Assembly: GCF_003337245.1 (NCBI RefSeq)
Contig: NZ_QPJE01000003.1
Location: 1 to 64,000 of the forward strand
DNA from: Halanaerobium sp. MA284_MarDTE_T2
GTDB taxonomy: Bacteria > Bacillota > Halanaerobiia > Halanaerobiales > Halanaerobiaceae
Direction of reading: 5' to 3'
DNA length: 64,000 nt
Made by a program: the position numbers and the translations under genes. Positions 2,500-22,207 of this stretch are shown in pieces (the stretch's first letter is position 1; each line of letters opens with the position of its first letter). A model generated the notes under the pieces. It worked only from the letters and a program-made list of their open reading frames with translations. It was not told the DNA's origin and made no database searches.

Positions 2500-2579
2500 A
2501 GATTAAGATAGAGAATAATAATTTCAGGATAAAGAAAAAGCTCATTCTATCTTATAAAAAATTTACAGGGGTGGTTAAA

Positions 2580-3767
2580 ATGACAGATAAGTTAAAAATA
2601 GAAGTTTATTCTAAAGGATGGTGTCCATACTGTAAAAAGGCTAAAGCATTTTTAAAATCAAAAAATCTTGATTATATCGAATATAATATCGATAATGAAG
2701 AAAAATTTGAAGAAATGAAGACTAGAACTGGCAGAAAAACAGTTCCTCAGATAATAATAAATGGACAGTGCCTAGGTGGATATGATGATCTTATTAAGCT
2801 GGAAAAATCTGGTGATCTCGATAATATACTCGGAGTTAAAAGTGAAGATTACAGCCAAAAAAAGTGGGATCTAATAATTATTGGTGCTGGCCCGGCAGGT
2901 TTAAATGCAGTTCTTTATGCAGCACGCAAGGGTATTGATCTGCTGCTGATATCCAAAGATATCGGTGGACAGGTTATAGATACCAATGAAATCGATAATT
3001 ATCTGGGCAAAGCACAGATAAATGGAGATGATTTAATTATGGATTTCTGGGACCATATTCACAATTATGATATTACAGCTGTCATTGGAGAAGAAATACT
3101 AAAAATAGAAAGTCAGAATGGTGAACATATTTTAAGAACAGATTCTGAAAAGGAATATATTGCTCGTTCAGTGATAATAGCATCAGGTGCAGAAAAAAGA
3201 CATCTCGGTATGAAACAGGAGTATGTGCTTAAAGGAAAAGGAGTTCACTACTGCATTAGCTGTGATGGATATCTTTATGCAGGCAAAAGGGCAGCAGTGG
3301 TTGGAGGAGGAAATTCAGGACTTGAAGCAGCCCTGGACCTTGCAAAAATGGATGCAGAAGTTATTTTAGTAGAAATTATGGATTATTTAATGGGAGATGA
3401 AGTACTTCGGGAGAAAGTTGCCAGTTCAGATAAAATAGATGTTTATACTTCAACCAGTGTTAAAGAAATTATAGGAGAAGATAGTCTTGAGGCAGTTATT
3501 CTGGAAAATAAAAATACAGGTGAAGAAAAAAGAATAGAACTTGATGGTCTGTTTATAGAAATTGGTCTTTCTGCAAAAAGTGATTTTGTTCCAGATATAA
3601 TGGAAAGGAATAAACAGAAGGAAATAATAATAAATGATAAAAACGAGACAAATATTGAAGGATTATTTGCCGCAGGAGATGTAAGCAATATTATAGATAA
3701 ACAGATAGTAATTTCTGCTGCAGAAGGAGCAAAAGCTGCACTTAGAGTAAACCAGTATTTAAGTTAA
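2580..3767 (+). CDS. Glutaredoxin-thioredoxin reductase fusion
   Basis: 395 aa from the ATG at 2580, placed 5 nt after AGGGGTGG; an in-frame GTG at 2571 overlaps that site and is less likely. Residues about 5-80 are a glutaredoxin domain with a CPYC active site and the TVPQI cis-Pro motif. From about 100 a thioredoxin-reductase/AhpF-type module follows: FAD site GAGPAG, redox pair CISC, NADPH site GGGNSG, and the C-terminal GLFAAGDV motif. The fusion would pass electrons from NAD(P)H through FAD and the CISC disulfide to its own glutaredoxin arm, probably to reduce a peroxidase or protein disulfides. Cytosolic. The partner is not visible in the neighbourhood. Confidence 0.85.
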   Translation: MTDKLKIEVYSKGWCPYCKKAKAFLKSKNLDYIEYNIDNEEKFEEMKTRTGRKTVPQIIINGQCLGGYDDLIKLEKSGDLDNILGVKSEDYSQKKWDLIIIGAGPAGLNAVLYAARKGIDLLLISKDIGGQVIDTNEIDNYLGKAQINGDDLIMDFWDHIHNYDITAVIGEEILKIESQNGEHILRTDSEKEYIARSVIIASGAEKRHLGMKQEYVLKGKGVHYCISCDGYLYAGKRAAVVGGGNSGLEAALDLAKMDAEVILVEIMDYLMGDEVLREKVASSDKIDVYTSTSVKEIIGEDSLEAVILENKNTGEEKRIELDGLFIEIGLSAKSDFVPDIMERNKQKEIIINDKNETNIEGLFAAGDVSNIIDKQIVISAAEGAKAALRVNQYLS

Positions 3768-6457: not shown

Positions 6458-7996
6458 ATGAAGAATAAAACTGGAACTTTAATGATTCAAGGCACTTCTT
6501 CTGATGCTGGTAAAAGTTTTTTTGTTACTGCTTTATGCAGAATTTTTACTAGAAAAGGAATAAAAACTGTGCCCTTTAAAGCCTGGAATATGTCTCTTAA
6601 TTCTTACATAACAAAAAATGGCAAAGAAATTGGCATAGCGCAAGCTTTACAGGCGAGAGCTGCTTTTAGAGAAGCCTCTGTAGATATGCAGCCAATTTTA
6701 GTTAAAGCGATGGGAGACGGCCAGACCCAAATTGTTATTAATGGTGAAGTGGATAAGAATATTAATTATCAAAAAAACAAAAAAAAATATCTTGAAATTT
6801 ATGAGAGCACAATTAAGGATTCATTAAAAAGATTGAGAAAAGATAATGAGCTGATAATTATTGAGGGAGCAGGAAGTCCTGCAGAAATTAATAGAACTAC
6901 ACCTGATTTTGCTAATATGTTTACAGCAGAAATTTATAATTCTCCAGTGCTTTTAATCAGCAGTATTGAAAAAGGAGGCTGTCTTGCTTCTTTAGTTGGA
7001 ACATTAAAACTCTTATCTCCAGTCCATAAAAAGTTGATAAAAGGATTGATAATCAATAAATTTCGGGGAGATTATAATTTGTTAAAACCTGCAGTTAAGT
7101 TTTTAGAGGATTATACAGAAAAAGAAGTTATGTCTGTTTTACCTTATCTTAAAAGTCTTAATTTACCAGAAGAAGATTCTGCTTCTTTAAACTTAAATAA
7201 TTATGGAGAAAATTCTAAAAAATTAAAAATCGCTGTAATAAGATTACCTCACATGTCAAATTTTAGTGATTTTAATAGTTTGAAAATGGAAGTTGATCTA
7301 AAACTTGAATATATTAAAAACAACCAAGAATTACTTAATTTTGATTTAATAATTATACCAGGAACTAAAACAACCACTAAAGATCTTGATTTTTTAAAGA
7401 AAAGCGGATTGGCAGCCGAAATTAAAAAAGCTAATAAAGCCGGAATTATGATAATTGGTATTTGTGGTGGATTCCAAATGCTCGGACGAAAACTAATTGA
7501 TAAATATGGAACAGAAGGAGATATAAAAAAAATAAATGGACTTGGATTACTAGATATTAATACAGTATTTTTAAATAAAAAAACTACTCATCAAGTAAAA
7601 GTGAAAATCAATTTAACTCAGCAGCTTGAAAATTTGATGTCTAGATTTAACCCTCAAGAGTTTTTTTTAGGGTATGAAATTCATATGGGTCAGACAGAGT
7701 ATTTAAATGGGACTGAAGAATTATTCAGAATAATAAAGAGATCTAACATAAAAGTAAATTTAAAAGATGGTGCAGTTAATCAGGCTGGAAATTGTTTTGG
7801 AAGTTATCTGCATGGATTATTTGATAATGATAATTTTCGCAGTGCACTTTTAAATAAGCTCAGAAATAATAATAGTTCAGCCAGCTCGAAATCATGTAAC
7901 TATCAGCAGGAAATTGAAAAAAATATTGACAGGCTGGCAGATGTGGTAGCAGAAAATATTGATACTGATAAATTATTAAATTTAAGTAGAAGGTGA
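6458..7996 (+). CDS. Cobyric acid synthase-like amidotransferase, divergent first copy
   Basis: 512 aa. CbiP/CobQ family, which amidates side chains b, d, e and g of cobyrinic acid a,c-diamide using glutamine and ATP. The P-loop region GTSSDAGKS (12-20), class-I glutaminase triad Cys336 in GICGG, and a C-terminal SYLHGLF His are present, so it looks catalytic. It departs from the family where the next gene does not: PFKAWNMSLNS has Trp43 for the usual Gln, and the usual ADID(K/R)GGVFA reads SSIEKGGCLA (168-177). Directly behind the B12 riboswitch and 4 bp before the second copy. It may take a subset of the four amidations, another corrinoid, or be a drifting paralog. Confidence 0.85.
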   Translation: MKNKTGTLMIQGTSSDAGKSFFVTALCRIFTRKGIKTVPFKAWNMSLNSYITKNGKEIGIAQALQARAAFREASVDMQPILVKAMGDGQTQIVINGEVDKNINYQKNKKKYLEIYESTIKDSLKRLRKDNELIIIEGAGSPAEINRTTPDFANMFTAEIYNSPVLLISSIEKGGCLASLVGTLKLLSPVHKKLIKGLIINKFRGDYNLLKPAVKFLEDYTEKEVMSVLPYLKSLNLPEEDSASLNLNNYGENSKKLKIAVIRLPHMSNFSDFNSLKMEVDLKLEYIKNNQELLNFDLIIIPGTKTTTKDLDFLKKSGLAAEIKKANKAGIMIIGICGGFQMLGRKLIDKYGTEGDIKKINGLGLLDINTVFLNKKTTHQVKVKINLTQQLENLMSRFNPQEFFLGYEIHMGQTEYLNGTEELFRIIKRSNIKVNLKDGAVNQAGNCFGSYLHGLFDNDNFRSALLNKLRNNNSSASSKSCNYQQEIEKNIDRLADVVAENIDTDKLLNLSRR

Positions 7997-8000
7997 TCAA

Positions 8001-9524
8001 ATGGCAGATACAGTTATGATTCAGGGTACAGCTTCAGATGCCGGCAAAAGTATTTTAGCAGCTGCTCTATGCAGAGTACTGGCTCAGGATGGATATAAAA
8101 CAGCTCCCTTTAAATCTCAAAACATGTCTTTGAATTCTTATATTACAAAAGAGGGTCAGGAAATTGCAATTGCCCAGACAGTACAGGCAGAGGCAGCAAA
8201 AGTAGAAGCAGAAGTTAATATGAGTCCAATTTTGATGAAGCCTATCGCCGATGATATGTCTCAGATAATCTTAAAGGGAAGAGTATTTAAAAATATGAAG
8301 GCTGCTGATTATTTTTCCCAAAAAGAGAAGTTACTTAAAATTATAAGAGAAGCCCTTGCTGAATTAAAAATGGATTATGATCTTTTAGTTTTAGAAGGTG
8401 GGGGTAATCCGGCTGAAGTAAATTTAAGAGATAAGGATCTTGTTAATATGAAAGCAGCAGAAATAGCTGATGCGCCAGTGATTTTAGTTGCAGATATTGA
8501 TAAAGGTGGAGTTTTTGCTTCAATTGTTGGAACTCTGGATTTGCTTACTGAAAAAGAAAGAAAGAGAGTTAAAGGAATAATAGTCAATAAATTTAGAGGT
8601 GATCCTGCTGCTTTTAAATCTGGAGTAGAGTTGATAGAAAAATATTCTAATAAAAAAGTATTGGGAGTTATGCCATATTTAGAAAAACTTAATTTACCTT
8701 CAGAAGATAGTTTGCAGCAAGAAATTTATAGTAATCAGAACTACAAGGTTGATATTGCAGTTATTGCCTATCCAGGGATGTCAAACTTTACAGATTTTGA
8801 TTATTTTAAAACTGCAAAAGATATTCAGCTTAGATATGTAAAAAAGGAAATGGAGCTGGGAGATCCTGATTTAATTATACTGCCTGGTTCTAAAACTACT
8901 ATTAGTGACTTAGAATTTTTATATGAATCAAAACTTTCTGGAAAAATCATTGAAAAGGCAGCCCAAAATACTGAAATTATCGGTATTTGTGGGGGCTATC
9001 AAATGCTAGGTCAAAAAATATCAGATCCGGATAATTTGGAAGGGACCAGGCAAAATATAAAAGGCCTTTCACTACTAAAGATTAGTACTGTTCTGGAATC
9101 TCAAAAAATAACGAGACAGGTTAAGGTGGAGAGTTTAAATAAACTAAATTTTTTTAAAAATAGTCAGAAGAAAGTTTTAAGTGGTTATGAAATTCATCAG
9201 GGTAAAACTATACTAGCTGCTGATCAGAAATCATTATTTAAGTTAAAAAGACAGAAATTAGGTAAGTCAGAAAAAACTGTTTGTGATGGAACAGTAAATG
9301 AGAGAGGAAATGTCTGGGGTACATATATTCATGATATTTTCAAAAATGATTGTTTTAGAAAATCATTAATTAATCATCTTTTAACAAAAAAAGGTCTGAG
9401 TTTAGATTCAGAACTAGAAAAAAGTGCAGCTGAGATCAGAGAAGACAATTATAACTATCTGGCATCAGAATTTAGAAAACATATTGATCTTGAGTCATTA
9501 TATAAAATTATTTTTGATAATTAG
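8001..9524 (+). CDS. cbiP: Cobyric acid synthase
   Basis: 507 aa, ATG after AAGGTGAT. Carries canonical CbiP features: GTASDAGKS near the N-terminus, PFKSQNMSLNS with the usual Gln40, VADIDKGGVFAS (163-174), glutaminase Cys in GICGGYQMLGQK near residue 335, and a late GTYIHDIF His. It converts adenosylcobyrinic a,c-diamide to adenosylcobyric acid by four Gln/ATP-dependent amidations. Of the tandem pair this one keeps the standard motifs and is the better candidate for the housekeeping activity. Confidence 0.94.
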   Translation: MADTVMIQGTASDAGKSILAAALCRVLAQDGYKTAPFKSQNMSLNSYITKEGQEIAIAQTVQAEAAKVEAEVNMSPILMKPIADDMSQIILKGRVFKNMKAADYFSQKEKLLKIIREALAELKMDYDLLVLEGGGNPAEVNLRDKDLVNMKAAEIADAPVILVADIDKGGVFASIVGTLDLLTEKERKRVKGIIVNKFRGDPAAFKSGVELIEKYSNKKVLGVMPYLEKLNLPSEDSLQQEIYSNQNYKVDIAVIAYPGMSNFTDFDYFKTAKDIQLRYVKKEMELGDPDLIILPGSKTTISDLEFLYESKLSGKIIEKAAQNTEIIGICGGYQMLGQKISDPDNLEGTRQNIKGLSLLKISTVLESQKITRQVKVESLNKLNFFKNSQKKVLSGYEIHQGKTILAADQKSLFKLKRQKLGKSEKTVCDGTVNERGNVWGTYIHDIFKNDCFRKSLINHLLTKKGLSLDSELEKSAAEIREDNYNYLASEFRKHIDLESLYKIIFDN

Positions 9525-9536
9525 GTGGTGTAATAG

Positions 9537-10049
9537 ATGCAGGGAATGGTTCATGTTTATACAGGTAAAGGCAAAGGGAAAACAACTGCTGCCTTTGGAT
9601 TGGCAATTAGGGCAGTAGGAGCAGGGAAAAATGTTTATATAGCTCAGTTTGTTAAAGGTATGAAATATAGTGAATTAAAAAGCTTAAAAAAGATAGAAAG
9701 AATTGAGATTAAACAGTATGGATTAAATTGTTTTATCAAAGGGAAAGCAGAAGAGGAAGATATTAATGCAGCTCGCAAAGGCCTAGAAGAAGTAGCCAAG
9801 ATTTTAAAATCAGGTGAGTATGAGCTAGTAATTTTGGATGAAGCAAATATTGCTGTTTATTATGATCTTTTTTCTGAAGAGCAATTAATTGAAGCTATAG
9901 ATAATCGTTCAGAAGAAGTGGAAGTTGTAATTACTGGTCGTTATGCGGCAGATAAGATAATAGAATATGCTGATCTGGTAACAGAAATGAAAGAAATTAA
10001 ACATTATTATCAAAAAGGTGTTAAAGCAAGAATTGGAATTGAAAAATAA
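9537..10049 (+). CDS. cobO: Cob(I)yrinic acid a,c-diamide adenosyltransferase
   Basis: 170 aa. Transfers the 5'-deoxyadenosyl group of ATP to cob(I)yrinic a,c-diamide and salvaged corrinoids. CobA/CobO/BtuR type: P-loop YTGKGKGKTTAAFG near the N-terminus, then VILDEANIA as Walker B. Start chosen at the ATG 6 nt after AGGTGGTG; an in-frame ATG three codons later has no site of its own. It sits after the cbiP pair, whose substrate must be adenosylated. Confidence 0.93.
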   Translation: MQGMVHVYTGKGKGKTTAAFGLAIRAVGAGKNVYIAQFVKGMKYSELKSLKKIERIEIKQYGLNCFIKGKAEEEDINAARKGLEEVAKILKSGEYELVILDEANIAVYYDLFSEEQLIEAIDNRSEEVEVVITGRYAADKIIEYADLVTEMKEIKHYYQKGVKARIGIEK

Positions 10050-13880: not shown

Positions 13881-15410
13881 ATGAAAGTATATATAATAGG
13901 TGCTGGTGCTGGTGATCCAGAATTATTAACTATTAAAGGAAAAAAAGCAATAGAGAATTCAGAAATCATAATTTATGCTGGTTCATTAGTTAATCCAGAA
14001 GTTTTAAAGTATAATAAAGCAGCTAAAACATATAATAGTGCTAAATTAAGTTTAGATCAGGTAATTGAGATAATAAAAAAAGCTGCAGCTGAGGATAAGA
14101 ATGTAGCTAGAGTCCATACAGGAGATCCCTCTATTTATGGAGCAATTAAAGAACAGATTGATAGTTTAGCAGAAAATGAAATTGATTATCAGATTATACC
14201 AGGAGTTAGTTCGTTTTTAGCTGCAGCAGCAGCTTTAGAAGCAGAATATACTTTACCAGATGTTTCCCAAACTGTTATTTTAACTAGACAGGCTGGAAGA
14301 ACTCCAGTTCCAGACAAAGAAAAATTGGCTAGTTTAGCTCAACATCAAGCTTCAATGGCTATCTTTTTAAGTGTACAGATGATAGAAGAAGTAGTAGATA
14401 ATTTAAGCAAGGAATATCCTTTAACAACTCCAGCTGCTATTGCAGCCAAAGCTTCTTGGCCAGATCAGAAGGTAATTAAAGCTACTTTAGGTGAAATTGC
14501 AGCTGAAGTAAAAGCAGCTGGGATTAAAAAGACTGCCTTGATTTTAGTTGGTGATTTTTTAGACAGTGATTATCAAAAATCTAAATTATATGATAAGAAT
14601 TTTGCCCATGAATATAGAAATGGAAAAAAAGGGGAAAAAGCAGTTTTAGTTGTTAGTTTTGGAACAAGTTATCATGAAACCAGAAAGAAAACTATTGCAG
14701 CATGTGAAAAAAGAATAAAAGATCATTTTCCGGAATATGAAGTAAAAAGAGCTTTTACTTCAGGAATGATAATTGAAAAACTTAAGAAAAGAGACAATAT
14801 TGATATCGATAATCCTAAAGAAGCTCTAAAAAAATTGTATAAGGAAGATTTCCAGGAGGTAATTGTTCAGCCTCTTCATATAATTAATGGTAGCGAATTT
14901 CATGATTTGATTAGAACTGTAAAGAAATTTAAAAATAATTTTAGAAGCTTAAAATGGGGTAATGCACTTTTATCTAAAACTGCTGATTATTTTGATGTAG
15001 CAAAAATATTAAAAACTGAAGTAGAAAACAATTCAGAAGAAGAGGCTGTTGTACTAATGGGACATGGAAGTTCTTATGCTGCTAATTCAGACTATGCTGC
15101 TCTTGATTATGTGCTAAAAGAAAGGGGTATGAAGGATTATTATGTTGGCGCAGTTGAAGGATATCCAGAAATTCAGGTAGTTATTAAACAACTTAAGAAA
15201 AAAAACTATAAAAAAGTAAAGTTGGCGCCGCTTATGCTTGTAGCAGGAGCTCATGCACAAAATGATATGATTGGAGAAAATGAAGATAGCTGGAAAAATC
15301 TTTTAGAAAATGAAGGTTTTGAGGTAGAATTTCAGCTAAAAGGACTTGGTGAATATGAGGGTATTCAAAATAAATATGCAGAAAAAGTAAAGTCTTTACT
15401 GGAAAAGTAG
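13881..15410 (+). CDS. CbiF-CbiK fusion: cobalt-precorrin-4 C11-methyltransferase / sirohydrochlorin cobaltochelatase
   Basis: 509 aa, one uninterrupted reading frame. Residues 1-235 are CbiF: GAGAGDPELLTIKG, VHTGDPSIYGA (79-89), and VILTRQAGRTPVP. After a short charged linker, residues about 252-509 are CbiK: LVVSFGTSYHETR, metal/proton-transfer His395 in LMGHGSS and His458 in LVAGAHAQNDM. It thus joins cobalt insertion with a later ring methylation. CbiK forms are normally separate proteins of about 260 aa, and the second half has that length with no truncation. Lacking a signal peptide, it is cytosolic, unlike periplasmic CbiK forms. Frame and codon use are continuous across the junction, so an assembly error is unlikely. 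Confidence 0.93.
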   Translation: MKVYIIGAGAGDPELLTIKGKKAIENSEIIIYAGSLVNPEVLKYNKAAKTYNSAKLSLDQVIEIIKKAAAEDKNVARVHTGDPSIYGAIKEQIDSLAENEIDYQIIPGVSSFLAAAAALEAEYTLPDVSQTVILTRQAGRTPVPDKEKLASLAQHQASMAIFLSVQMIEEVVDNLSKEYPLTTPAAIAAKASWPDQKVIKATLGEIAAEVKAAGIKKTALILVGDFLDSDYQKSKLYDKNFAHEYRNGKKGEKAVLVVSFGTSYHETRKKTIAACEKRIKDHFPEYEVKRAFTSGMIIEKLKKRDNIDIDNPKEALKKLYKEDFQEVIVQPLHIINGSEFHDLIRTVKKFKNNFRSLKWGNALLSKTADYFDVAKILKTEVENNSEEEAVVLMGHGSSYAANSDYAALDYVLKERGMKDYYVGAVEGYPEIQVVIKQLKKKNYKKVKLAPLMLVAGAHAQNDMIGENEDSWKNLLENEGFEVEFQLKGLGEYEGIQNKYAEKVKSLLEK

Positions 15411-19698: not shown

Positions 19699-20763
19699 AT
19701 GCTGAAAGATAAAAAAATAGCTATAATTATTTTGACTCCAGCCGCCAAAAAAATAGCTCTAAAGCTAAAAAAAGTAGTCAGCAGCCTGGATATATATTCG
19801 CCAAATAAATTAAAAGATAAGAATAATCAATTTTATTATTTTAATTCATTTAAAACAACAATAAATGATATATTTAATAAATATGATGGCATAGTTTTTA
19901 TCATGGCCCTGGGGATAGTTGTGCGGATAATTGCTCCGCTGCTGAATAACAAAAAAACTGATCCAGCTGTAATAACAATTGATGACTCAGGCCAGAATGT
20001 AATCAGTACTCTTTCTGGTCATCTGGGAGGAGCAAATCTGCTGACAGTAGAAATTGCTGCTGTTTTAGACTCTAATCCTGTAATTACTACCGCCACAGAT
20101 TGCAGTAATCAGCCTGCATTTGATCTTTTAGCTCAGAAACTTAACTGCAAAATAGAGCCTTTTAAAAGATTGAAAAAGGCAAATGGAGCTCTACTATTTG
20201 GTAAAGAAGTTCATATTTATACTGATTATAAAATTCATATTAAAGAAACTAAAAAATTAAAAAAACATAGTTTAAATTATGTTAATAACAAGATTAAAGA
20301 TGATGTTTTTGAAGTTATTATTTCCAATCAGCAGTATAAATTAAAAGAAAATCAACTGCAGTTAATTCCCAGAAATATTATTATTGGTATTGGCTGTAGA
20401 AAAAATATCTCTTTTTTCGCTATTAAAAGTGCATTAAATTCAATTTTGATTGAAAACAATTTATCTCGAGAAAGTATAAAAAAATTAGCAACTATTGATT
20501 TAAAAAAGAATGAAAAAGGTATTTTAAAACTGGCAGAAAAAAATGACTGGCCGCTTGAAATAATTACGCGAAAAAAAATCAGAGAAATTGAAGATAGTTT
20601 AAAAATAAAAAAATCAGATTTTGTTAAAAAAACAATTGGAGTTGCGGCAGCAGCAGCCCCGGCAGCAATTCTGGCATCAAACAATGGGGAATTAATAGTA
20701 GATAAGCAAAAATATGCAGGAATTACTCTAGCAGTTTTTGAGGAGGAAATTGAAAGTGAATAA
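19699..20763 (+). CDS. cbiG: Cobalt-precorrin-5A hydrolase
   Basis: 354 aa. Opens the delta-lactone and expels acetaldehyde; specific to the anaerobic pathway. Central motifs DGIVFIMALGIVVRIIAPLL and STLSGHLGGANLLT are family hallmarks, and the C-terminal domain carries GIGCRKNIS and a final Ala-rich GVAAAAAPAAILAS segment where many relatives have GV.EPAALLAS. Full length. Overlaps cbiA by 8 bp. Confidence 0.93.
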   Translation: MLKDKKIAIIILTPAAKKIALKLKKVVSSLDIYSPNKLKDKNNQFYYFNSFKTTINDIFNKYDGIVFIMALGIVVRIIAPLLNNKKTDPAVITIDDSGQNVISTLSGHLGGANLLTVEIAAVLDSNPVITTATDCSNQPAFDLLAQKLNCKIEPFKRLKKANGALLFGKEVHIYTDYKIHIKETKKLKKHSLNYVNNKIKDDVFEVIISNQQYKLKENQLQLIPRNIIIGIGCRKNISFFAIKSALNSILIENNLSRESIKKLATIDLKKNEKGILKLAEKNDWPLEIITRKKIREIEDSLKIKKSDFVKKTIGVAAAAAPAAILASNNGELIVDKQKYAGITLAVFEEEIESE

Positions 20764-22207
20764 AAAATTACTTATTGCCGGCAGTCGGAGTGGAGTTGGT
20801 AAAACTACAATTTCATTAGGGTTAATGGCAGCACTTAAAAAGCGAGGGCTTAAAGTACAGCCATTTAAAGTTGGACCTGATTATATAGATCCTGGTTTTC
20901 ATACTTTAATCTGTGGTAGGGATTCTTATAATTTAGACAGCTATTTTTTGGGAGCAGCTGGAGTTAAAAAAGTCTTTTCAGAAAACAGTAAGCAGGCTGA
21001 TATCTCGATGATTGAAGGAGTTATGGGTTTATTTGATGGTAAAGGTAAAGAGTCAGTCAGCAGTTCAGCTGAAATAGCTAAAATTATCAAGGCGTCTGTT
21101 ATTTTAATTATTGATGCTCGCAAAGTTGCTCAGAGTGCTGCAGCAGTAGTCTATGGTTATAAAAATTACGATCAAAAATTAAACCTAAAAGGAGTTATAA
21201 TTAATAATATAAGCAGTCCTCATCATTTCAAACTATTAAAAGAAGCAATTAAAGCTAAAATGAATGACTTAGTAGTTTTGGGCTATCTTCCTAAAAATCA
21301 GGATCTCGAACTTCCGGAAAGACATCTTGGTCTGGTACCAGTTTCTGAAAGTAGTGAACTTAAAGCATACAGTCAAAAATTAATTGAGATTATGGAAAAA
21401 TATATTGATATTGAGCAGGTAATAGAAATTTCGCAAGTAGAACCAGAAAATTTATTTAAAGATAATTCGGCTACGAAATCAACTATAAAAAATATAAAGA
21501 TAAAAAATAAAAGAGAAGAAAAAATTGAAACAAAAAGTTTTTCTGAAAATTTTAAAGGAAAAATGGAATCTGCAAATATAAAAATAGGTATTGCTTCTGA
21601 TCAGGCTTTTAACTTTTATTATCAAATAAATTTAGATCTTTTAAAAGCAGCGGGAGCAAAAATTGTCGAGTTCAGCCCCTTAACAGATTCTAGACTCCCT
21701 GAAGTAGATGCAGTTTATCTGGGAGGAGGATTTCCCGAAAGTTTTTTGCAAGAACTTGCTGCAAATAGAGAATTCAAAAGCGATTTCAAAGAAAAAGTCA
21801 AACAGGGACTTCCAGCTTATGCAGAATGCGGAGGGCTGATGTATTTCTGCCGTCAGGTCAAAGATTTTGAGGGGAAAGAATTTCAAATGCTGGACTTACT
21901 TCCAGCCGAGATAGAAATGACTTCTAAATTACAGGAAATGGGATATCGAGAAGTTGAAGCTTCAGCTGATAACTTATTATTTAAAAAAGGAGAAAAAGCA
22001 AGAGGGCATGTGTTTCATTATTCCAGAATTTCAAAGATTGACCAAAAAGTTAAAAGAAGTTATAATTATCGAAAAAAAGAAGAGGGTTACAGCAGTCTGG
22101 ATAATATTTTAGCCTCCTATATACACCTGCACTTTGCTTCTAACCTTCAAATAGTGAAAAATTATTTGGAAAAAGCTTTAATCTATAAAAAAAGTAGAGG
22201 TGCTTAG
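20756..22207 (+). CDS. cbiA: Cobyrinic acid a,c-diamide synthase
   Basis: 483 aa from GTG 20756, 9 nt after AGGAGG; TTG at 20750 is too near. Glutamine/ATP-dependent amidation at positions a and c of cobyrinate. P-loop AGSRSGVGKTT, VGPDYIDPGFH, VMGLFDG, C-terminal glutaminase with Cys in YAECGGLMYF and a late YIHLHFAS His. A Lys-rich insert (about residues 238-260) separates the two domains. Confidence 0.94.
   Translation: MNKKLLIAGSRSGVGKTTISLGLMAALKKRGLKVQPFKVGPDYIDPGFHTLICGRDSYNLDSYFLGAAGVKKVFSENSKQADISMIEGVMGLFDGKGKESVSSSAEIAKIIKASVILIIDARKVAQSAAAVVYGYKNYDQKLNLKGVIINNISSPHHFKLLKEAIKAKMNDLVVLGYLPKNQDLELPERHLGLVPVSESSELKAYSQKLIEIMEKYIDIEQVIEISQVEPENLFKDNSATKSTIKNIKIKNKREEKIETKSFSENFKGKMESANIKIGIASDQAFNFYYQINLDLLKAAGAKIVEFSPLTDSRLPEVDAVYLGGGFPESFLQELAANREFKSDFKEKVKQGLPAYAECGGLMYFCRQVKDFEGKEFQMLDLLPAEIEMTSKLQEMGYREVEASADNLLFKKGEKARGHVFHYSRISKIDQKVKRSYNYRKKEEGYSSLDNILASYIHLHFASNLQIVKNYLEKALIYKKSRGA

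Follow-up and report, generated by a model that had tools for sequence, protein, structure and literature searches.

The window analysed here, the whole 64,000-nucleotide stretch at positions 1 to 64,000 of contig NZ_QPJE01000003.1 of Halanaerobium sp. MA284_MarDTE_T2, encodes two adjacent, diverged cobyric acid synthases (CbiP), which were typed by the residue at alignment column 43 itself as the W copy (tryptophan; cbiP-W) and the Q copy (glutamine; cbiP-Q). They are interpreted as an old, co-inherited pair of paralogues that most likely assembles as a hetero-oligomer with active sites formed between subunits, an interpretation in which about even confidence is placed. A narrower version, given appreciably less credence, is that the W-Q heteromer is obligate, W being the half that binds ATP and performs catalysis and Q supplying the substrate pocket in trans, with Q reduced to a pseudo-enzyme in one family and some genera having shed the glutaminase domain to use free ammonia.

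The two cobyric acid synthase genes

The W copy (6458..7996, + strand, 512 amino acids) and the Q copy (8001..9524, + strand, 507 amino acids) are intact open reading frames with four bases between them. As the first-pass annotation of this DNA had stated, they are full-length, adjacent CbiP-type genes preceded by a B12 riboswitch (RF00174, 6104..6296, + strand; 114.4 bits, gathering score 31.5) on the 5′ side of the pair. Both match the NCBIfam cobyric acid synthase family NF001989 (W 571 bits, Q 617 bits; curated cut-off 273) and TIGR00313 (490 and 528 bits, respectively; cut-off 309.9). The two copies are 46% identical, the genome has no third, and W was filed as a paralogous subfamily within the CbiP family.

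The same annotation had described the second copy as canonical and the first as having Trp in place of Gln in PFKxQNM with its P-loop and glutaminase cysteine kept, and this description is accurate. Q has Gln40 (codon at 8118..8120, + strand) in the column of Trp43, and W reads PFKAWNM (Trp43 codon at 6584..6586, + strand) and keeps the P-loop GTSSDAGKS (6491..6517, + strand) with Lys19, as well as Lys41 and the glutaminase residues Cys336 (7463..7465, + strand) and His452 (7811..7813, + strand). The P-loop, the lysine of PFK, Glu136 and the glutaminase cysteine and histidine were all found in both copies. The glutamine of PFKxQNM is a motif set by this analysis and not by the NCBIfam curators.

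An AlphaFold model of the W copy (predicted local distance difference test, pLDDT, 90) has two domains: a synthetase domain (residues 5..506) that resembles dethiobiotin synthetase (DTBS, 1dbs; Z 19.1, root mean square deviation 3.3 over 216 residues) and a glutaminase domain (residues 244..490) that resembles GatD (9sq9_D; Z 20.7, root mean square deviation 3.7 over 223 residues). By hhalign, the CbiP synthetase domain is related to DTBS (E 3e-10) and to CbiA, the cobyrinic acid a,c-diamide synthase (E 4e-10). In the model, the glutaminase domain is inserted into the DTBS-like fold and the last helices of that fold (about residues 482-510; 7901..7987, + strand) lie after the insert and complete the synthetase domain. 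Because the insertion precedes them, these C-terminal helices survive in relatives without the glutaminase domain, and such relatives look like clean domain excisions rather than truncations.

Distribution and gene order

Pattern scans for the W motif covered 398 genomes of the phylum and 59 of the class, and a scan of the genome collection for relatives of W kept the best 80 of 590 confirmed loci, so that the distribution given here applies within the phylum; families, genera and genomes are given GTDB-based codes (f, g and G) and loci are coded L. Thirty-one of the 59 class genomes and 19 of the 398 phylum genomes carry the W motif, together 39 distinct genomes. Thirty-two of them contain a contiguous W-Q pair, spread over nine GTDB-coded families, and at all 32 loci W is first and Q second on one strand, with a gap of at most 125 bases (nine overlap by the chosen start codons). 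The other seven (G014, G021, G033-G037) have W but no Q; three of these (G034, G036, G037) are 62-80% complete and the other four 93-100%. Q-only genomes among those examined are G022, G023, G026, G029, G154 and G434. The W gene of G021 is near a contig end with a CbiB-like gene after it, and G037, a genome without CbiA and CbiD, has two W copies, 85% identical, on separate contigs (L044, L045).

The first-pass annotation had named absence of the first copy from close relatives as a sign against its proposal. In the window's own family (f1), CbiP is present in seven of 14 genomes and all seven have both copies; the other seven gave no CbiP match, with the Q copy as query too. Family f76 (19 genomes) contains 14 contiguous pairs, all with W first, nine of which are new beyond the 32 loci. 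The remaining f76 genomes have the pair split over two contigs (G453), a chimeric frame (G443), a single Q (G449, G454) or no match (G444). The chimeric frame (L275), about 390 amino acids long, joins the start of W to the end of Q, and may be either a real fusion or an assembly collapse.

Phylogeny and selection

Two midpoint-rooted trees were made, with 30 and 38 W rows and using 30 and 21 of the 80 named loci, respectively; proteins shorter than 440 amino acids were omitted from the former, and G036 and G037b from the latter and from the tree of changes at Phe176. In both trees all W copies fall into a single clade that no Gln bearer enters (SH-aLRT, the Shimodaira-Hasegawa-like approximate likelihood ratio test, 96; 30 and 38 rows). 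The Q partners of the class also form one clade (SH-aLRT 97; 17 and 24 rows), with a branching order similar to that of W, and the Q copies of the six Q-only genomes belong to clades outside it. The Q partners of f76, f128 and f11, families outside the class, do not join this clade either, so that the trees support a single origin of the W copies and of the Q partners of the class, but not of the pair as a whole.

By pairwise Nei-Gojobori counts, the ratio of nonsynonymous to synonymous substitution rates (dN/dS) in family f1 ranges over 0.13-0.16 among W copies and 0.08-0.13 among Q copies, and other comparisons gave 0.04-0.18. Both copies are under purifying selection and neither is relaxed. 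The checks that the first-pass annotation had called for, phylogeny of the copies and purifying selection on the first, thus show an unrelaxed W gene in a single clade, and a pair spread over nine families that is not a local duplicate. The proposal withstands the refuting signs that it named for relatives and for selection. A recent local duplication was considered and rejected, as the copies are only 46% identical and fall in separate clades; so was a pseudogene or assembly artefact, as neither reading frame is interrupted, purifying selection acts on each copy, and the single-contig genomes G002 and G005 contain the two together.

Residues that distinguish W from Q

Forty W copies (32 paired, eight unpaired) were compared with 115 non-degenerate Q copies (30 paired, 85 single), the single-copy CbiPs coming mostly from the best-scoring loci, which biases them toward full length. 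The partial copies of L055, L056 and L113, and the copies of L114, which look like duplicates of those of G435, were omitted from the residue comparisons and the decay count, and G133 and G316 also from the analysis of 30 pairs. With cut-offs chosen in this analysis, as were those for conserved columns in the decay count below, four columns split the 32 paired W copies from the 115 Q copies: 43 (Trp in W, Gln in Q), 152 (Ala, Val), 175 (Ala, Val) and 176 (Leu, Phe). The window's W copy has Trp43, Ala152, Cys175 and Leu176 at these columns. All four are within the synthetase domain, in the PFKxxNM loop, near the Asp146 column and where the helix following DIDRGG begins, column 152 being two residues from Asp146 of the enterobacterial enzyme.

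Column 43 is Trp or Gln in every CbiP with a readable motif, in both sets of sequences compared. Trp43 can hardly be put down to chance, because the column always holds one of the two residues and the Trp bearers are one clade without a Gln bearer. The seven genomes in which W occurs without Q suggest that the Trp change alone does not cripple the protein. Lys19, Lys41, Glu136, Asn145 and Asp150 are retained in 40 of 40 W copies, and Lys19 likewise in each of the 115 non-degenerate Q copies. In this set every W copy with a glutaminase domain has Cys336 and His452 (28 of 28 among the paired ones). Other W traits among the 30 pairs are Gln or His at column 78 (at least 23), loss of Tyr107 (30) and loss of Leu146 (24); Tyr107 is present in the W copies of G133 and G316, contrary to the 30 other paired W copies.

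The first-pass annotation had also drawn attention to SSIEKGGCLA in place of the canonical ADIDKGGVFA. This sequence is present in the window's W copy (residues 168-177, including Ser169 and Leu176; 6959..6988, + strand), but it is not a general mark of W: of the 32 paired W copies, seven have Ser or Asn in column 169, every one of them from family f1, and the other 25 have Asp. SSIEKGG was therefore rejected as the key difference between W and Q. Among the 30 pairs, Asp169 is lost either from W only (seven) or from Q only (four) and never from both, and it is lost in one of 85 single Q-type CbiPs. At column 176 each of the 32 paired W copies has Leu, and all eight unpaired W copies and all 30 paired Q copies have Phe.

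Loss of the glutaminase domain and one-sided decay of Q

Neither copy has a glutaminase domain in G024 and G025 (genus g12 of f4) or in G133, G316, G450 and G451 (g109 and g288 of f76); in G442 and G455 (f76) it is missing only from Q, and the single W of G014 lacks it as well. The g12 pairs (L057 5177-6872; L058 6639-8355) keep the C-terminal helix and are possibly ammonia-dependent or served in trans. No separate CbiP-type glutaminase was found in G024, G025, G133 or G316 at E 0.001, by a search that also missed the glutaminase of CbiA, so that a distant one could escape it; the glutaminase-less pairs would need free ammonia or the glutaminase of another protein. The W copy of G455 (L273) has kept the domain beside a glutaminase-less Q, with its cysteine changed to glycine (GIGGGYQ), and is perhaps a step toward loss. 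G025 also carries an extra glutaminase-less Q at a contig edge (L113 1-3516), followed by second CbiA-, CbiB- and PduX-like genes.

In six f76 genomes, a short glutaminase-less Q that has lost catalytic motifs stands beside a near-intact W; loci of this kind include L101 8713-10415, L276 3335-5034, L277, L274 and L273. Decay was counted over the 68 synthetase columns that are at least 95% conserved in single CbiPs, with the chimeric frame of G443 omitted. Lys41, Asn44 and Met45 are lost from all six short Q copies and the P-loop lysine from two. Nineteen of the 68 columns are changed in at least four of the six Q copies but in at most one of the six W partners, and the reverse pattern, W changed and Q kept, is limited to two (Ile170 and Arg203); of the rest, eight are mixed and 39 retained in both. 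The idea that W is the degenerate partner was not borne out, as the partner losing many conserved columns is Q. What the short Q copies retain is Asp169 (five of six), Gly173-174 (six of six) and Phe176 (five of six). Two further column sets were hand-picked after the f76 copies had been inspected. One holds 33 catalytic-side columns, of which the W partners share 32 or 33 with the W consensus and the short Q copies share 15 to 21 with their own. The other holds 12 columns around DIDRGG; there the short Q copies agree with their consensus at 8 to 12 and their W partners at 8 or 9, but scores of 8 to 12 are also seen in normal W copies of f76.

These short Q copies are under selection, with dN/dS of 0.17-0.18 in g288 and g109 (0.13-0.18 for the W partner); the Q comparison between the more distant G455 and G450 has saturated dS. 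The predicted fold of the short Q of G133, a genome that carries it together with CbiA and CbiD, is that of DTBS (pLDDT 91, Z 19.9). The degenerate Q is best read as a partner subunit, because it has lost the catalytic lysine and its neighbours and is nevertheless kept beside a near-intact W with most of the DIDRGG region.

Association of Q with CbiA

CbiA is present in 30 and CbiD in 27 of the 32 paired genomes. Q is retained in all 30 W genomes that have CbiA and is absent from seven of the nine that lack it. In the seven W-only genomes, no CbiA was found at E 1e-6, apart from one weak hit in G037 to the glutaminase region of CbiA, and no CbiD at E 1e-15. The presence of Q tracks CbiA more closely than CbiD, since G032, G187 and G439 lack CbiD and keep CbiA with both CbiP copies. 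PMC8123684 groups genomes that carry CbiP and CbiB without CbiA with those that take up cobyrinate diamide; the W-only genomes would fit this class, with W alone performing all four amidations. By inspection, the W gene of G033 is in a salvage-type cluster with CobU-, CbiB-, CobT-, CobS-, PduX-, CobD- and BtuF-like genes.

A proposed composite active site

The substrate cavity of DTBS lies between two subunits (PMC8659263), and CbiP is reported as dimeric (PMC8123684). Because DTBS binds its substrate in this way, a mixed dimer of W and Q would hold two composite synthetase sites. In each, one chain would provide the residues for ATP binding and catalysis, and the other chain a part of the substrate pocket, namely the start of the DIDRGGxF helix and Arg203; ammonia would come from glutaminase domains that could be shared or dispensed with. 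The site with W as the catalytic chain and Q as the pocket would be indispensable, and the reverse site would be free to change or die. Decay of the catalytic half of Q, with the catalytic half of W and the pocket half of Q kept and the pocket half of W variable, would be expected of one live and one dead site, and Phe176 in W copies that have no partner may be fitted to the same picture. Residues of BioD near positions 150-153 have a contact role in its dimer. Also counted in favour of a heteromer are the constant order and close spacing of W and Q, the single W clade with the similar branching of the Q partners in the class, the loss of the glutaminase domain from both copies in g12, g109 and g288, and the fact that Asp169 is never lost from both.

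Several observations weigh against this model. Four Q copies lack Asp169, a residue that Q should supply, and Leu176 occurs in 14 of 85 single CbiPs; the association of Phe176 with unpaired W amounts to two independent changes (sign test p 0.5). W does not always need Q, as the seven W-only genomes attest, and two pairs (G316 and G038) occur without CbiA. In g109, the W copies have themselves changed at Arg203 and a few other conserved columns, and the six degenerate Q copies are all from one family and possibly of one origin. A sequence search of the PDB matched only chains of the GatD-type glutaminase, so that the composite site is proposed by analogy, and contact between W and Q is suggested by comparative sequence evidence. 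For the window's own pair, in which Q is canonical and W is altered at column 169, division of labour between two homo-oligomers is possible.

Alternative explanations

The first-pass annotation had offered three options, namely a split of the four positions, a hetero-oligomer and action of the first copy on another corrinoid. The one-sided decay in f76 favours the hetero-oligomer, and a split retains a smaller but real share of the probability: W and Q could form separate homo-oligomers that amidate different carboxylates of cobyrinic acid a,c-diamide and hand over released intermediates. In Raushel's 2007 papers on CbiP the amidations are said to be sequential and dissociative, and one point mutation to randomise their order partly, so that such a hand-over would be chemically easy. 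The confinement of all four separating columns to the synthetase domain suits a split, as does the closeness of column 152 to Asp146 of the enterobacterial enzyme, which is reportedly the mutated residue, and so does the retention of Q in every W genome with CbiA and in only two of the nine without. Set against a split are the six short f76 Q copies, which have lost Lys41, Asn44 and Met45 and are retained all the same, even in G133 with its CbiA and CbiD, and the seven salvage-type genomes served by W alone, where one CbiP would be expected to do all four steps. For the latter reason, a split in which W acts only late in the route is less likely, though conceivable.

It is improbable that both copies are full-range CbiPs retained for flux, that is, for redundancy or dosage, and merely drifting apart. 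W-only and Q-only genomes both exist, so that each type may serve alone, and both copies exceed the family cut-off; yet drift would not be expected to produce one W clade with a fixed order and short spacing over several families, nor to fix residue differences between the types, erode one partner only or leave a degenerate Q that is still selected. Least probable, and little supported, is the third option, that W acts off the main route on a different corrinoid, whether salvaged, partly amidated or damaged. W-only genomes without CbiA and CbiD and the salvage-type cluster of G033 would suit it, but the paired genomes mostly have CbiA and the ring-making gene CbiD, and the class to which PMC8123684 assigns genomes with CbiP and CbiB but no CbiA takes up cobyrinate diamide, the normal substrate.

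Comparison with known systems

The proteins are members of a known family, and the conserved, possibly heteromeric pairing is the new part. They resemble CbiP/CobQ (NF001989, TIGR00313) in their two domains, P-loop, glutaminase cysteine and histidine, and operon position, and differ in that CbiP is described as one gene product (PMC8123684 and PMC7242693) whereas the window has two diverged adjacent paralogues. DTBS (BioD) is folded like the synthetase domain, C-terminal helices included (Z 19; hhalign E 3e-10), but it is a homodimer without a glutaminase domain and acts on another substrate; the composite site proposed for the CbiP pair is modelled by analogy on its substrate site between subunits (PMC8659263). 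In MurT-GatD, whose GatD has the closest solved glutaminase structure (Z 20.7), the synthetase and the glutaminase are on separate chains, whereas W and Q of the window each carry both domains, the glutaminase being part of each chain and not free-standing. MurT is a Mur ligase. CbiA/CobB has homologous synthetase and glutaminase domains (hhalign E 4e-10) but makes the a,c-diamide, and has PFKVGPDY where CbiP has PFKx[W/Q]NM. No account of tandem, duplicated or paralogous CbiP was found in the literature searched, which is weak evidence of absence because subscription papers were largely outside the search.

To our knowledge, the fixed-order amidation of four ring carboxylates by one enzyme is poorly understood. 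A natural pair with diverged sites, one partner of which can lack catalytic motifs, makes the question of amidation order experimentally divisible, including which carboxylates each site would amidate. If the proposed pairing is correct, many anaerobes use two genes for a step that is annotated as one, and there exists a glutaminase-less, possibly ammonia-fed CbiP.

Neighbouring genes

The pair heads a long operon, in which the next gene encodes cob(I)yrinic acid a,c-diamide adenosyltransferase (9537..10049, + strand; NF004637, 213 bits). The downstream genes resemble cbiC, D, E, T, L, F, MNQO, H, J, G, A, B and pduX, by inspection except for cbiA, which was identified by NCBIfam (20738..22207, + strand; NF002204, 540 bits) and whose product is the one that Q tracks at the genome level. 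Among seven loci of relatives that were scanned, the riboswitch is immediately 5′ of the W gene in two (G007 and G010).

Two other frames of the window appear to be fusions. A 509-amino-acid frame (13881-15410) resembles CbiF fused to a CbiK-type chelatase; families f8 and f10 have matching frames of only some half that length. The other frame, at 2571-3767, resembles, by inspection, a glutaredoxin fused to a thioredoxin reductase.

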